Below, piece by piece: positions 16,641 to 21,773 of a stretch of 32,490 bases of DNA (position 1 is the first letter of the stretch; each line of letters begins with the position of its first letter). The notes under the pieces were generated by a model. That model did no database searches and had not been told where the DNA came from. It saw only the letters and a list, made by a program, of their open reading frames with translations. Source of the stretch: an uncultured Schlesneria sp. (GTDB lineage: Bacteria > Planctomycetota > Planctomycetia > Planctomycetales > Planctomycetaceae); NCBI GenBank assembly GCA_903899985.1, contig CAIULL010000054.1:1-32490 (forward strand), in the 5' to 3' direction. The position numbers and the translations under genes were made by a program.

Positions 16641-17708
16641 TCAGCGAACTTTCGTTTCGGTCGTATTCGGCTGACGCAACTCATTCCAGGCGGCTTCGGC
16701 CTTGGGTCCCCAGGGTGTATCTCCATACCGGAAGACGACTTCGCTGTAGAGCTTGACTGCTTCGTTTCGATCGCCGGCGACGCTGAGCGATTCGGCGGCC
16801 TCGAAACAGGCACGACTGCTCAGCCATCGGTCAGCGTCATAGACAAGCGGCAGCCACAAAAACGCTCTCGCGGCTTTTTCGTGTTCTTTGCGCTGCTTCC
16901 AGGCATTTCCAATCACGAAGTAAGCCCCGCCGCGCAACTCGAAGGACAGGTCTTCAACGAATTTTTCCCAACCAGTGATCTCGTCTGGATCAATTTGGGA
17001 TGTCCCTTTCAATTTCATTCGCCATAATTGCATTTGCGCCAAACGCTGTATTCTAACATCCGGCTCACGCGCGAGTTTCTTCAGTGTTGCTTGAGCTTCC
17101 ATGTTCCCATCAGCCACCGACAAAAGCCAACTCGCCCCGATCAGTCGCGAAAGTGGTGTTGCTTTCGGTCCGATCCATTCCCTCGCATCAAGCCTGAGGT
17201 TTTCAGCGGGCTGATCATCGGTCCAATTTAACGGTACCAACCCATAATGAAACGTTTCAGCATCTGACTGGACGATCGGAATGAAACGGGAAACGGCGGT
17301 GTAATATTCACCGTTCCACAAGGTACACCTTACCTGATTCGCGAGAATCTCTCGCCTCACCCAAGGGCGGTCTTCGTCGTTTAACGCCTCAGTGAACTCA
17401 TCGCGCGCCTCGGCAATCTTTCCGCCAGCAAACAACTTGCGGCCCCGGTCATGATGCGGCGTATATTCCGTCGTCACTTCAACAATGTCAGTACGCGGAT
17501 AATGTCGAACCGGCTCATTCGGCTTGATTCGAAGTGAAATTCCCCGTCCCGTGTAGTCTTCGATGTATCCCGACATTGGAAATCGGCTGCCACCCGGTTG
17601 CTGGACCAGCACACGATCCTGTGCCGACGCTGGAACTGTCCACACCAGAGTCGTCGTATAGGTCGCCAACTGGAGCACAACCACAGCGTGAATCGAGCAG
17701 CGAGACAT
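16641..17708 (-). CDS. Secreted TPR-like protein of unknown function
   Basis: A 355-residue exported protein. The signal peptide covers about residues 1-30, ending ASAQ-D. A small beta-rich segment follows (FPMSGYIEDYTGRGISLRIKP, ending TDIVEVTTEYTPHH), then helical repeats resembling tetratricopeptide repeats: RKLFAGGKIAEARDEFTEAL, FVIGNAWKQRKEHEKAARAFLW and ESLSVAGDRNEAVKLYSEVVFRYGDTPWG. The ATG at 17708 gives a good signal peptide; a longer start at 17780 would overlap the upstream gene. It begins 23 bases after the HEAT-PDZ gene and is probably co-transcribed with it. It likely forms part of a periplasmic scaffold or protein-protein interaction system, which I infer from the repeats only. 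Confidence 0.82.
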   Translation of the reverse strand: MSRCSIHAVVVLQLATYTTTLVWTVPASAQDRVLVQQPGGSRFPMSGYIEDYTGRGISLRIKPNEPVRHYPRTDIVEVTTEYTPHHDRGRKLFAGGKIAEARDEFTEALNDEDRPWVRREILANQVRCTLWNGEYYTAVSRFIPIVQSDAETFHYGLVPLNWTDDQPAENLRLDAREWIGPKATPLSRLIGASWLLSVADGNMEAQATLKKLAREPDVRIQRLAQMQLWRMKLKGTSQIDPDEITGWEKFVEDLSFELRGGAYFVIGNAWKQRKEHEKAARAFLWLPLVYDADRWLSSRACFEAAESLSVAGDRNEAVKLYSEVVFRYGDTPWGPKAEAAWNELRQPNTTETKVR

Positions 17709-17731
17709 CGCGTTGTAACCTGTGCAGTGAA

Positions 17732-18703
17732 TCAGGGGCGCGGCTGTGGAGGAACATTGGCAGCTGCTGGCTTGGCCCATGCCGTCAGCTTGGCGGTGAC
17801 CTTATGCGTTTCGTCACCGCGTCGAAAGACGATCGGGACTTTCTCACCCGGTTCCTTCTCACCGATAATTTCGATCAGTTTTTCAAAGGAATCGACAGGC
17901 AGTCCGTCAATTTCGATGACTTCATCTCGAATCTTCATCCCTGCCTCTTCCGCAGCAGACCCCGGATCGATTGCATGAATCACACAGCCGTCATCGCTTG
18001 TCCTGCCGCGAATTCCCAGTCGGGCCGGTCCCCGTCGCTCGATCTTCAAGAACGGTAATCCCGTTGTGAGATCAAACAATGTCCTCTCCGAAACGTCGAT
18101 ACCTCGAATAATATACAATTGGGTCATCGAGAGTCGAAGGTCTTCGATCCGCCCAAGTAAGCGCAAATCGGATTCTTCACCCACCCAGTCTCGACCGAGC
18201 ATGACGTAATCGACGGTAGGCCGTCCAAGCAGCTGCCGATCTGTTGTCTGATCTGTAAAATGGATGATAGCGCCAAGTCGTTCAAGCCGGGCGACAGCGC
18301 GTTTCTGGCGGTTTTCTGCCCCGCTGTCAAAGGCTCGTTCAGCCCTGGCTGCGACCGCGAGGTGCTCGCTCCCCTTGAGTCGACTTAACACGATTTCGAC
18401 CATTTCAAATGCCGTTTCGTCGTCGCCGCGATAGAGCTGTTGTAAAACTTCAAATGCTCGGACCGATGCTTCCGGCGCACCGGCTTCCGCGACGACCATT
18501 AACGCAGGGATTGCACCTGCGCCGAGAGACGATAATTGTTTCACCGACGCCTCGCGCCGGTCGAAATCGGGATGATCGAGTTCCGAAATCGGGCCGCGTA
18601 AATGCTCTGGCACCCAGGCATCGGCCGGAAGCGCTTCGTCCGCAAAGCCTCTTCTCCCTGCGGAAACGACCGCAAATATCAGGCAGATTCGCAGAAGTTT
18701 CAT
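17732..18703 (-). CDS. Secreted HEAT / LRR-like / PDZ domain protein
   Basis: A 323-residue exported protein with signal peptide (about 1-22, AVVSAGRRGFADEA). Residues 35-125 look like HEAT-type helical repeats (DHPDFDRREASVKQLSSLGAGAIPALMVV). Residues about 140-220 hold leucine-rich-repeat-like strands (DLRLLGRIEDLRLSMTQL). Residues 227-308 are a PDZ domain: ARLGIRG, VIHAIDPGSAAEEAGMKIRDEVIEIDGLPV and EKVPIVFRRGDE. There is no serine protease domain, so it is not a DegP. The PDZ probably binds C-terminal peptides of periplasmic proteins. It is followed by the TPR-like gene 23 bases downstream. The mixture of short scaffold domains is typical of planctomycete secreted proteins. The specific partner is unknown. 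Confidence 0.85.
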   Translation of the reverse strand: MKLLRICLIFAVVSAGRRGFADEALPADAWVPEHLRGPISELDHPDFDRREASVKQLSSLGAGAIPALMVVAEAGAPEASVRAFEVLQQLYRGDDETAFEMVEIVLSRLKGSEHLAVAARAERAFDSGAENRQKRAVARLERLGAIIHFTDQTTDRQLLGRPTVDYVMLGRDWVGEESDLRLLGRIEDLRLSMTQLYIIRGIDVSERTLFDLTTGLPFLKIERRGPARLGIRGRTSDDGCVIHAIDPGSAAEEAGMKIRDEVIEIDGLPVDSFEKLIEIIGEKEPGEKVPIVFRRGDETHKVTAKLTAWAKPAAANVPPQPRP

Positions 18704-18960: not shown

Positions 18961-20334
18961 GTGATCAAGACGGCTGAACCAGTTAATATTCGTGGTATTC
19001 TGCAATCCAAGGGACATATGACGGCTGACGAGTTCAGCCAATTAAGGCGTGCGGTCGCGTCGGATCAGGTCGCAACGACCCGGCAAGAGATCGAAGCTCT
19101 GCTAAGAGAAGTCGAAAGCGGGGGTGCATCAAGCCAGTCCGTTCGCGCCGGGATTGGTGCCTACTTACTCGCGCAACATACCCTTGCTGAACGCCTTCTT
19201 TCGGGTGCGAGTGGCGACGGAGTTGCATATTACGTCCACGGATTGGTCTTTATGTCGTTGGAAAAATACGACGAAGCCGAAGCGAAGTTCGCAGCCGCCG
19301 CAAAGGCTGGGTACGATCCTGTTGAATGCACTATGAAAAAAGCTGGTGCAATCCGACTTCAAGGACGACTGGACGAAGCAGAAACGACACTTAAGCAAGC
19401 CGGTATGGAAGGCGCCCGACGAGCCGACTATTCGTACCAGATGGGATGCATCCTCGCTGATCGCGGCGATACCTATGGAGCAATTGAGTACTTCGAACGT
19501 GCGGTCGACATGGACCCACATCACTCACAGGCCCTGTTTCGCCTGGCAGGTGAGAATGCCCTTTACGGTAACGACAACGAAGCAATCCGCCTCTACGAAC
19601 AAGGACTCAGTAAAGCTCCATTCTACATTGGGGGTCTTCTGAACCTCGGCTTGTTGTACGAAGACAAAGGGAACTACTCTGCGGCAGCATTCTGCTTTCG
19701 ACGAGTGCTTCAGCACGATCAGAATCACGCTCGTGCTTTGATGTACATGAAGGACATCGAAGCAACGAACGAAATGTATTATGACGATGACATGGCCAAG
19801 AACGAAGCACGACTGGAGCAATTGCTCAGTCGGCCTGTCACTGACTTTGAACTTTCCGTTCGCAGTCGAAATTGCCTTGCCAGCATGGATATCCAGACGC
19901 TGGGCGATTTGACGAAGATTACCGAACCAGACTTGCTTCAAGGAAAGAATTTTGGCGAAACTTCTCTCGTCGAAATTCGTGAACTGATGCAGGCTCACGG
20001 CCTCAGAATCGGACAGAACCTGGCACCAGCCAAGCCGAAAGACGCCGGGGCATGGCAAGGGGCTGCTGCAACCGGAGGTCCCGTCGGTACTTATGCAATT
20101 CTGCCAACCGACCTGTCACCCCAGGAACAGGCAATGCTGGCTCGGTCTGTCTCCGACTTGAACCTGTCGGTACGGGCACGAAAATGCATGGCTCGACTTG
20201 GAATTACCAGCCTGTCTGAATTGGTCCAGCGGACTCCTGATGAATTGCTGGCGACCAAAAACTTCGGCGTGACGTCGTTGAACGAAATTCGACAGCAATT
20301 GGGTGAGATTGGCTTGAAACTGCGTAACGATTGA
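18961..20334 (+). CDS. TPR protein with two RNA polymerase alpha C-terminal domains
   Basis: A 457-residue cytoplasmic protein with no signal peptide. Residues about 60-265 are tetratricopeptide repeats, for example AYYVHGLVFMSLEKYDEAEAKF, YQMGCILADRGDTYGAIEYFERAVDMDP and GLLNLGLLYEDKGNYSAAAFCFRRVL. They are followed by two copies of the helix-hairpin-helix fold of the RNA polymerase alpha subunit C-terminal domain: 293-352 (FELSVRSRNCLASM, QGKNFGETSLVEIRELM) and 396-455 (LNLSVRARKCMARLG, ATKNFGVTSLNEIRQ). Residues aligning with E. coli alpha R265, S299 and E302 are kept in both; N268 is kept in the first copy and is Lys in the second. The assembly domain of alpha is absent. The start is a GTG at 18961. 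It probably acts in transcription, binding DNA, polymerase or alpha partners, but this is inference. Confidence 0.88.
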   Translation: MIKTAEPVNIRGILQSKGHMTADEFSQLRRAVASDQVATTRQEIEALLREVESGGASSQSVRAGIGAYLLAQHTLAERLLSGASGDGVAYYVHGLVFMSLEKYDEAEAKFAAAAKAGYDPVECTMKKAGAIRLQGRLDEAETTLKQAGMEGARRADYSYQMGCILADRGDTYGAIEYFERAVDMDPHHSQALFRLAGENALYGNDNEAIRLYEQGLSKAPFYIGGLLNLGLLYEDKGNYSAAAFCFRRVLQHDQNHARALMYMKDIEATNEMYYDDDMAKNEARLEQLLSRPVTDFELSVRSRNCLASMDIQTLGDLTKITEPDLLQGKNFGETSLVEIRELMQAHGLRIGQNLAPAKPKDAGAWQGAAATGGPVGTYAILPTDLSPQEQAMLARSVSDLNLSVRARKCMARLGITSLSELVQRTPDELLATKNFGVTSLNEIRQQLGEIGLKLRND

Positions 20335-20396: not shown

Positions 20397-21773
20397 GTGA
20401 AAAACAGACCAAACGAGGCTGACAGCAAACCCGCTGCGCAGCCTTGTTTGTTTTCCTCCATTGAGGAACAAACACGTTCGCCCAGGGCCCGTGGCGTATG
20501 GATCGTTGTTTTACCGGCCTTTGCACTATTGATTGCAGTCGTGACCGTACAAACAGCCCCCGTAATTCATCGGGCGCCGCCACCATTGCAGACATTCGCC
20601 AAGCCCCGCTCAATACCCCCTACCCTTCCGCCTAAAACGGCTCGTCAAAAGGCGAAAGCAACCGAACCTGTCGTTCGAGTCAATGTCACACCCGGGGGCG
20701 TTAAGTCGTTCGAGCTTGATGTTCGTGGAAGATGCCGGTTGAGTTCGCTTGAGACGAATGAAGAACTGGCCTCTGAAGCCGGTCTCAGTCGAATCGTGGT
20801 GACATCCACGCCGAAAGGTCTCAAACTGGGATCGCGCCAGTACGCGACAAAACAGATTGAAATCCAGCCAGATCAATCACCTTCAATCCGCGTTGATGGC
20901 CACCTTTATCGGGGCCGATTGAGGTTGTTTCGTCGTGCGGATGGACTGATCTCGGCCGTCAACGTGTTGCCCCTCGAGGAATACCTCGCAAGTGTGGTCG
21001 ATTCTGAGATGCCGACCAAATTCCCCGAGGCAGCCCGACAGGCTCAAGCGATCGTGGCGAGAACTTACGCCTTGTATCAAGTCCGGCACGCCGACCCAAA
21101 CTCACAATTTGACCTGTTTTCTTCGCAGCGAAGCCAAAAGTATCTCGGCGTGGAATACGTGGATAACTCAGGTCGGCGACTGGCAGGAGAAAGTGAAAGC
21201 AGTCGCCGCGTAGTCAGAGAGACTCGTGGAGTGATCTGTACTCTGCGAAATGAGTTGTTCTGTACCTATTACTCAGCCGTTTGCGGAGGAAGAACGATCA
21301 ATGGCGACGAGGTATTCAAAGATGCCACCGACGCTTTGAAATCCGTACCATGTGAGTGGTGCCGCGAATCACCTCATTACCGCTGGACGACGGAATTGTC
21401 CCGTGACGCATTTCAACAACGAGCAACCAGTTCTAACAACAGCGGTAAGAAAATCGTTTCGATTCGTTCAATCCGGCAAACGACGTCCCCTGGAACTGGT
21501 TTGATTTCCCGATTTGAGCTCGATGCCGAGAAAGAACGCCCGTCCGTTAGCGGAATCGAACTTCGAGATCGGCTGCCACCTGGGACGCTGCATAGCCCTC
21601 ATTTCCAAATCAAACTGGAAAAGAATCGCGTTGTATTTGACGGTCGAGGTCACGGTCACGGCGTCGGTTTCTGCCAATGGGGAGCGAAAGGTCAGGCTGA
21701 AGCTGGTCGCACCAGTACAGAGATCATCCGACACTATTTTTCGGGAATCGAGCTGACAAATCTCGGTTATTGA
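20397..21773 (+). CDS. SpoIID/LytB domain protein, likely peptidoglycan lytic transglycosylase
   Basis: A 458-residue protein with an N-terminal membrane anchor at about residues 34-52 (VWIVVLPAFALLIAVV) and a Pro-rich linker. The SpoIID region has VNVLPLEEYLASVVDSEMP (188-206) with E204, matching the catalytic Glu of SpoIID, then AIVARTYALYQVRH, CTYYSAVCGGRT, and the closing motif GRGHGHGVGFCQWGAKGQAEAG (417-437). SpoIID cleaves glycan strands stripped of peptides. In place of the usual SGGHT segment there is AVCGGRT plus CEWC (319-322), so the cysteines C296, C319 and C322 may bind metal (inference). The start is a GTG at 20397 with GGAG upstream. It lies 62 bases after the TPR/alpha-CTD gene. 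In a non-sporulating planctomycete it would act in peptidoglycan remodelling. Confidence 0.9.
   Translation: MKNRPNEADSKPAAQPCLFSSIEEQTRSPRARGVWIVVLPAFALLIAVVTVQTAPVIHRAPPPLQTFAKPRSIPPTLPPKTARQKAKATEPVVRVNVTPGGVKSFELDVRGRCRLSSLETNEELASEAGLSRIVVTSTPKGLKLGSRQYATKQIEIQPDQSPSIRVDGHLYRGRLRLFRRADGLISAVNVLPLEEYLASVVDSEMPTKFPEAARQAQAIVARTYALYQVRHADPNSQFDLFSSQRSQKYLGVEYVDNSGRRLAGESESSRRVVRETRGVICTLRNELFCTYYSAVCGGRTINGDEVFKDATDALKSVPCEWCRESPHYRWTTELSRDAFQQRATSSNNSGKKIVSIRSIRQTTSPGTGLISRFELDAEKERPSVSGIELRDRLPPGTLHSPHFQIKLEKNRVVFDGRGHGHGVGFCQWGAKGQAEAGRTSTEIIRHYFSGIELTNLGY

Follow-up and report, generated by a model that had tools for sequence, protein, structure and literature searches.

A TPR protein carrying two RNA polymerase alpha C-terminal domains is present across the Planctomycetota

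Introduction

The C-terminal domain of the RNA polymerase alpha subunit (alpha-CTD) is a textbook part of the enzyme, and acts in cis on the alpha subunit. We describe here a planctomycete protein in which this domain (PF03118) is found away from RpoA. It differs from the RpoA domain in three respects: the alpha N-terminal domain (alpha-NTD) is missing, two CTDs lie in one chain, and both are carried on a TPR scaffold. A partial parallel is offered by SicA and InvF of Salmonella, where likewise a TPR protein is linked to an activator working with RNA polymerase alpha; these are reportedly separate proteins of a different pathway, and no fusion is involved (PMC10761746, PMC10977090).

In searches of the open-licence literature of PubMed Central, no title or abstract opening among the matches listed describes the planctomycete fusion. 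A transposon study of Planctopirus limnophila counts 739 genes as essential, and reports 108 proteins that are essential, phylum-specific and of unknown function (PMC10632474). The terms TPR, tetratricopeptide and rpoA have 0 occurrences in the main texts of this study and of PMC12283558.

Results

The gene lies in a stretch of 32,490 nucleotides from an uncultured Schlesneria sp. (contig CAIULL010000054.1), hereafter the window. Its features, all on the + strand, are as follows.

18961..20334 (+): whole fusion gene, from its GTG start through the stop codon, encoding 457 aa (TPR - alpha-CTD - alpha-CTD)
18988..19200 (+): poorly conserved helices at the N-terminus, residues 10-80 (model secondary structure)
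19219..19773 (+): TPR solenoid, residues 87-271 (Pfam TPR models; conservation by TPR position)
19774..19827 (+): connecting helix, residues 272-289, with a 'MyYDE' motif (model; conservation)
19828..20013 (+): CTD1, residues 290-351, equivalent to E. coli alpha 254-315
20014..20121 (+): linker between the CTDs, flexible, residues 352-387, of which 357-380 have pLDDT < 50 (AlphaFold model)
20122..20331 (+): CTD2, residues 388-457, with Lys replacing N268

The sequence-only reading of this DNA had proposed such a protein, with TPRs and two tandem alpha-CTDs, and the open reading frame, the TPR models and two PF03118 matches bear it out. Pfam TPR models matched inside residues 75-260, several of them over cut-off, and PF03118 matched twice (E=1.3e-40 for the whole protein). 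The AlphaFold model was all-helical, with a mean pLDDT of 91.4, and no signal-like stretch was seen by eye in this putatively cytoplasmic protein. A scan for promoters and terminators gave nothing above shuffles.

Profile searches with the two domains taken separately, a check suggested at the outset, placed both far over the curated PF03118 cut-off of 23.8 bits: CTD1 alone reached 70.8 bits (7.9e-20) and CTD2 alone 74.9 bits (4.1e-21), whereas the best other helix-hairpin-helix (HhH) type models gave 0.063 or worse on the isolated domains. The C-terminal region was modelled alone, because TPR proteins fill the whole-chain structure search, in which all 50 matches listed were TPR or TPR-like solenoid proteins. 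With this region, the 50 matches listed by Foldseek (best 50 of 243) were all RNA polymerase or alpha-CTD entries by title, and a second look again gave 50 out of 50 among the matches listed. A generic HhH reading of the two domains was thus rejected, in agreement with the alpha-CTD fold first proposed.

The protein is not a second RpoA. No alpha-NTD family was found among its Pfam matches, and the RpoA equivalog models remained below cut-off, at best 138.4 of 302 bits, their best stretches being residues 261-457. The window genome (8.0 Mb, 99.97% complete) contains three PF03118 matches, two in the fusion and one in RpoA, and the separate full-length rpoA (L001) sits between ORFs that read by eye as rpS11 and rpL17. 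The early claim that the assembly domain is missing holds, and RpoA is the only other PF03118 protein of the genome. Lacking the alpha-NTD, the fusion should be unable to replace RpoA in the core enzyme, and the candidate reading as a second RpoA was dropped on account of both the missing domain and the separate rpoA in a ribosomal protein operon.

Relatives had been expected in other planctomycetes, and a protein search of 392 Planctomycetota genomes found matches at E<=1e-20 in 369 of them, a count by E-value, with match ranges covering the top-scoring part of the list. The 23 genomes without such a match were all less than 95% complete by table; one of them, G143, still has three PF03118 matches. 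PF03118 itself was found in 388 of the 392 genomes: exactly three matches in 303, more in 50, one or two in 35 and none in 4. Three is the number expected for rpoA plus the fusion, the matches being counted without individual inspection. A family-profile search of 40 relatives found exactly one full-length match in 38, and none in G409 (95% complete) and G420 (89%). Genome counts for the 392-genome searches and for the 40 relatives were read from tables by eye. When 84,980 species were scanned, 578 relatives were obtained, and the 80 best of these all carry planctomycete names. The fusion is thus present across the Planctomycetota, and a chance or lineage-local fusion is rejected; we do not claim that it is restricted to this phylum. 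Among plasmids, none of the 37 matching records covers 80% of the query, and the annotated ones among the 30 matches listed are rpoA. Viral contigs gave 12 pattern stretches, none of which is a relative.

Two contigs of the metagenome bin CALGTK01 carry different fusion genes (L098:7837-9189, + strand, and L100:3639-5021, + strand), so that a second copy or mixed binning does occur. Two long N-terminal extensions (L046, 1202 aa, and L047, 690 aa) were considered as informative fusions and rejected; they were treated by eye as mis-set starts, because what precedes the usual start in these GC-rich genomes looks like unrelated sequence. Both were excluded from set A2.

Conservation was measured in a phylum-wide set of 22 genomes, with one fusion and one RpoA per genome, and in 120 distinct homologues, a set dominated by class Planctomycetia. 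In the former, mean pairwise identity was 68.8% for CTD1, 51.7% for CTD2, 53.7% for the RpoA CTD and 57.9% for the RpoA NTD; in the TPR part it was 39.7% for residues 150-262 and 24.9% for residues 60-149. CTD1 identity exceeded that of the RpoA CTD from the same genomes in 207 of 231 genome pairs, with 5 ties, and the difference was 15.3 points (11.0-18.4, bootstrap over genomes). In contrast, CTD2 was not more conserved than the RpoA CTD (higher in 94 of 231 pairs). Our most surprising result is that the detached CTD1 evolves at a slower pace than the tail attached to the polymerase.

Residues R265, N268, C269, G296, S299 and E302 (E. coli numbering) are positions which, from E. coli work, we take to contact DNA. 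The pair 259/261 we assume to face sigma, to be dispensable for DNA binding and, at E261, to have sigma R603 as partner. In CTD1 of the 22 genomes, R265, N268, G296, S299, E302 and E261 were each found in 22/22 and C269 in 21/22, and in the larger set R265, N268, S299 and E302 were kept in 120 out of 120. R267 (21/22 in CTD1, 20/22 in CTD2) and K293 (22/22 and 18/22) are also frequent; at these two positions and at E261, the phylum's RpoA varies, unlike CTD1. The position of K298 is T in all 22 CTD1, as it is in the phylum's RpoA. Both members of the 259/261 pair were acidic in 22/22 CTD1, versus 9/22 CTD2 and 8/22 RpoA CTDs, and R603 was kept in the top RpoD-type (TIGR02393) match of 22/22 genomes, 20 of these matches being over the family cut-off.

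For CTD2, the 120 homologues had R265 in 120, S299 in 119 and E302 in 119 (one gap), so the reported presence of R265, S299 and E302 counterparts in both copies, seen in the window fusion, extends nearly invariantly to its homologues. The Lys noticed at position 268 of the second copy is there in the window, and this residue is K in 108 homologues, R in 10, N in 1 and H in 1. In the 22 genomes, R265 is present in every CTD2, and residue 268 is K in 12, R in 8, N in 1 and H in 1. Lys at this place, which adds positive charge, is thus close to a phylum-wide trait, judging by the sequences sampled. At 14 positions that we took to be DNA-facing, mean charge was +2.2 for CTD1, +3.6 for CTD2 and +1.3 for RpoA.

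Inspection of the TPR solenoid revealed a conserved groove. With the repeat register set by eye, and the last repeat cut at 14 positions, mean entropy in the last three repeats was 1.21 at presumed concave positions, 1.29 in the structural core and 2.13 elsewhere (Mann-Whitney p=3.2e-4). Other groupings of the repeats gave p=6.7e-4 (all six) and p=0.0034 (middle three). N228, E234 and D265, within the groove of the last three repeats, are invariant in the 22 genomes. A conserved ligand would be expected to leave such a pattern. Between D265 and residue 290, the spacing was 25 in 120/120 homologues, whereas the stretch 352-393 ranged from 23 to 76 residues (median 26), and the linker between the two CTDs is disordered in the window's AlphaFold model. 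The distance between scaffold and CTD1 is thus constant, and CTD2 follows on a linker.

A tree of 71 CTDs, weakly resolved over its 59 columns, grouped CTD1 in one clade (94/81) and 21 of the 22 CTD2 in another (96/93), while the planctomycete RpoA tails fell outside both and did not form one group. All CTD2 came together in only 19% of bootstrap trees, owing to G122, whose degenerate copy stands apart. From the two separate clades, both copies probably predate the phylum's diversification.

The G122 copy (L048:8231-9598, - strand, family f46) has lost the NFG..S motif from CTD2, and four other f46 genomes (G088, G195, G239 and G275) have only 2 PF03118 matches each. Two CTDs are therefore not always needed, and these genomes are natural versions useful for testing the contribution of CTD2.

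Picking the longest ORF recovered the fusion at 85 of 101 loci, and the neighbourhood counts given here come from a later pass. Among the 21 of 22 phylum-wide loci that have at least 4 kb downstream, 18 had at least one of ruvA, ruvB, spoIID, tgt, yajC and secDF downstream, on the same strand and within 4 kb, and in eight the ruvA start lay within 230 bp; no same-strand cluster gene was found upstream in the 22 loci, up to 8 kb. The cluster is complete in L048, where the fusion is followed by ruvA, ruvB, a gene presumed queH-like (judged by eye on its first residues), spoIID, tgt, yajC and secDF. In other bacteria, it is ruvC that usually lies upstream of ruvA. The fusion thus heads an old ruvA-ruvB-spoIID-tgt-yajC-secDF cluster. 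Of 56 named loci having 4 kb or more of downstream sequence, most of them from Planctomycetia, only 23 kept a cluster gene, and one named locus has a cluster gene upstream of the fusion. Gene order is thus clearly conserved over the phylum but eroded in the window's own class. One remnant of it is found in the window, next to two divergent upstream genes:

20397..21773 (+): SpoIID/LytB-domain gene, 62 bp downstream of the fusion (TIGR02669 E=2.9e-56), cluster remnant
17732-18703 (-): PDZ-domain protein, divergent upstream; its end overlaps the next gene
16641-17780 (-): TPR/YbgF-like protein, divergent upstream of the fusion gene

Discussion

Our preferred reading, to which we give a probability of about one half, is that the fusion may be an alpha-CTD adaptor acting in trans, which would hold promoter DNA and sigma region 4 while its TPR groove tethers a partner. 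Like the CTD of RpoA, CTD1 would dock in the AT-rich minor groove close to the -35 element of the promoter, with R265 in the groove and E261 facing R603 of sigma region 4, and CTD2 would touch DNA at a second place. A conserved protein would sit in the TPR groove, be it a global activator, a sigma factor or RNA polymerase itself, and the fusion would thereby recruit polymerase to promoters, or stabilise it there, without relying on the tail of RpoA. It could have arisen once, by the time of the phylum's common ancestor, inside a housekeeping gene cluster. Binding to DNA, sigma and polymerase is predicted here from the residues kept and from the E. coli contact map.

In favour of the adaptor stand the fold and family, the invariant contact positions of CTD1, the basic DNA face, the acidic 259/261 pair and the conserved R603, together with the higher conservation of CTD1 relative to the RpoA CTD, the separate clades of the two copies, the phylum-wide presence, the TPR groove and the fixed spacing. 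Against it, the genes around the fusion serve recombination, tRNA modification and secretion rather than transcription, CTD2 is not extra-conserved and is degenerate in some f46 genomes, and a few genomes are without the gene.

Three other explanations were weighed, and they account for less of the position-specific pattern than the adaptor does. The proximity of ruvA, together with the HhH domains that RuvA itself contains and the conserved, basic DNA face of the CTDs, would suit a DNA-binding protein linked to recombination, in which the alpha-CTD folds serve as minor-groove binders, possibly with RuvAB, and never contact RNA polymerase. We consider this unlikely, as the presumed sigma-facing pair, which DNA binding should not need, is acidic in every CTD1 of the 22 genomes. 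Moreover, spoIID, tgt, yajC and secDF belong to the cluster as well, and the adjacency therefore looks like an old housekeeping cluster and not like shared function; conserved over the phylum but eroded in Planctomycetia, it dates the gene and does not explain it.

A decoy or anti-activator, whose alpha-CTDs away from polymerase would soak up activators or sigma otherwise docking on RpoA, could be expected to look as the fusion does in having CTDs without the polymerase NTD, a flexible linker to CTD2, and E286 kept in 119 of 120 CTD1, beside position 287 (E. coli numbering), which we take to be the CAP-contact determinant. Yet position 287 is variable in CTD1, its six most frequent residues among the 120 homologues being Q (71), N (16), A (15), P (6), S (6) and G (2), while the DNA-contact positions are invariant, and a pure decoy need not retain DNA contacts; we regard this explanation as rather improbable. 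Mimic, bridge and decoy were the roles first put forward for the protein. A polymerase mimic or bridge appears to fit best, because the DNA-facing and sigma-facing positions are constant in CTD1, and the decoy seems to fit somewhat less well, because the presumed CAP-contact position varies.

Lastly, a hub function, with alpha-CTDs that no longer bind DNA and were recruited to a process of the cluster (envelope, secretion or tRNA modification), is very doubtful: TPR proteins often are protein-protein hubs and the synteny with spoIID, tgt, yajC and secDF is conserved, but the joint invariance of R265, N268, G296, S299 and E302 in CTD1 is hard to explain without DNA.

The adaptor reading can be carried one step further. 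The fusion might be a dissociable accessory factor of the polymerase that has taken over from RpoA's CTD the contacts with the UP element and with sigma region 4 (E261-R603), docking at promoters in trans and being regulable via its TPR groove. This takeover is suggested by the acidic 259/261 pair that CTD1 keeps while RpoA varies there, and we put it forward tentatively, with the odds leaning against it. In any case, nearly all sampled Planctomycetota genomes carry a second, physically separate set of alpha-CTDs, and the stricter keeping of CTD1 than of the polymerase's tail suggests an unrecognised part of planctomycete gene activation. If promoter docking is true, the transcription machinery of this phylum has an extra component, and its RpoA tail may be partly relieved of its job. 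We know of no such transcription component in any model bacterium.

Other proteins of the phylum likewise carry an alpha-CTD outside RpoA, in architectures that differ from the fusion. Non-RpoA PF03118 proteins of this kind were found in nine of ten genomes, these genomes having been picked for extra matches, and no TPR model matched the six that were scanned. Some are single-domain proteins of about 99-135 aa, from genomes G121, G339 and G357 of the window's class (L193:1044-1451, - strand, PF03118 E=4.2e-18; L194:946-1245, + strand; L195:936-1274, - strand). Two others, L200:2174-4000 (+) and L201:1583-3643 (+), combine two or three alpha-CTDs with sigma-70 region 4, one of them having HARE-HTH as well, and are possibly promoter-related. 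In L199:535-3426 (-), a protein of PurS-PurL type, an alpha-CTD-like domain (E=1.1e-10) is located between PurS and the FGAR-AT linker. Finally, L198:5-4238 (-) encodes a PglW-like kinase protein with NERD, kinase and PF03118 (E=7.2e-12) domains, and L197:2-3841 (+) reads by eye, with a PF03118 match, as a PglW-like kinase with an alpha-CTD-like domain.
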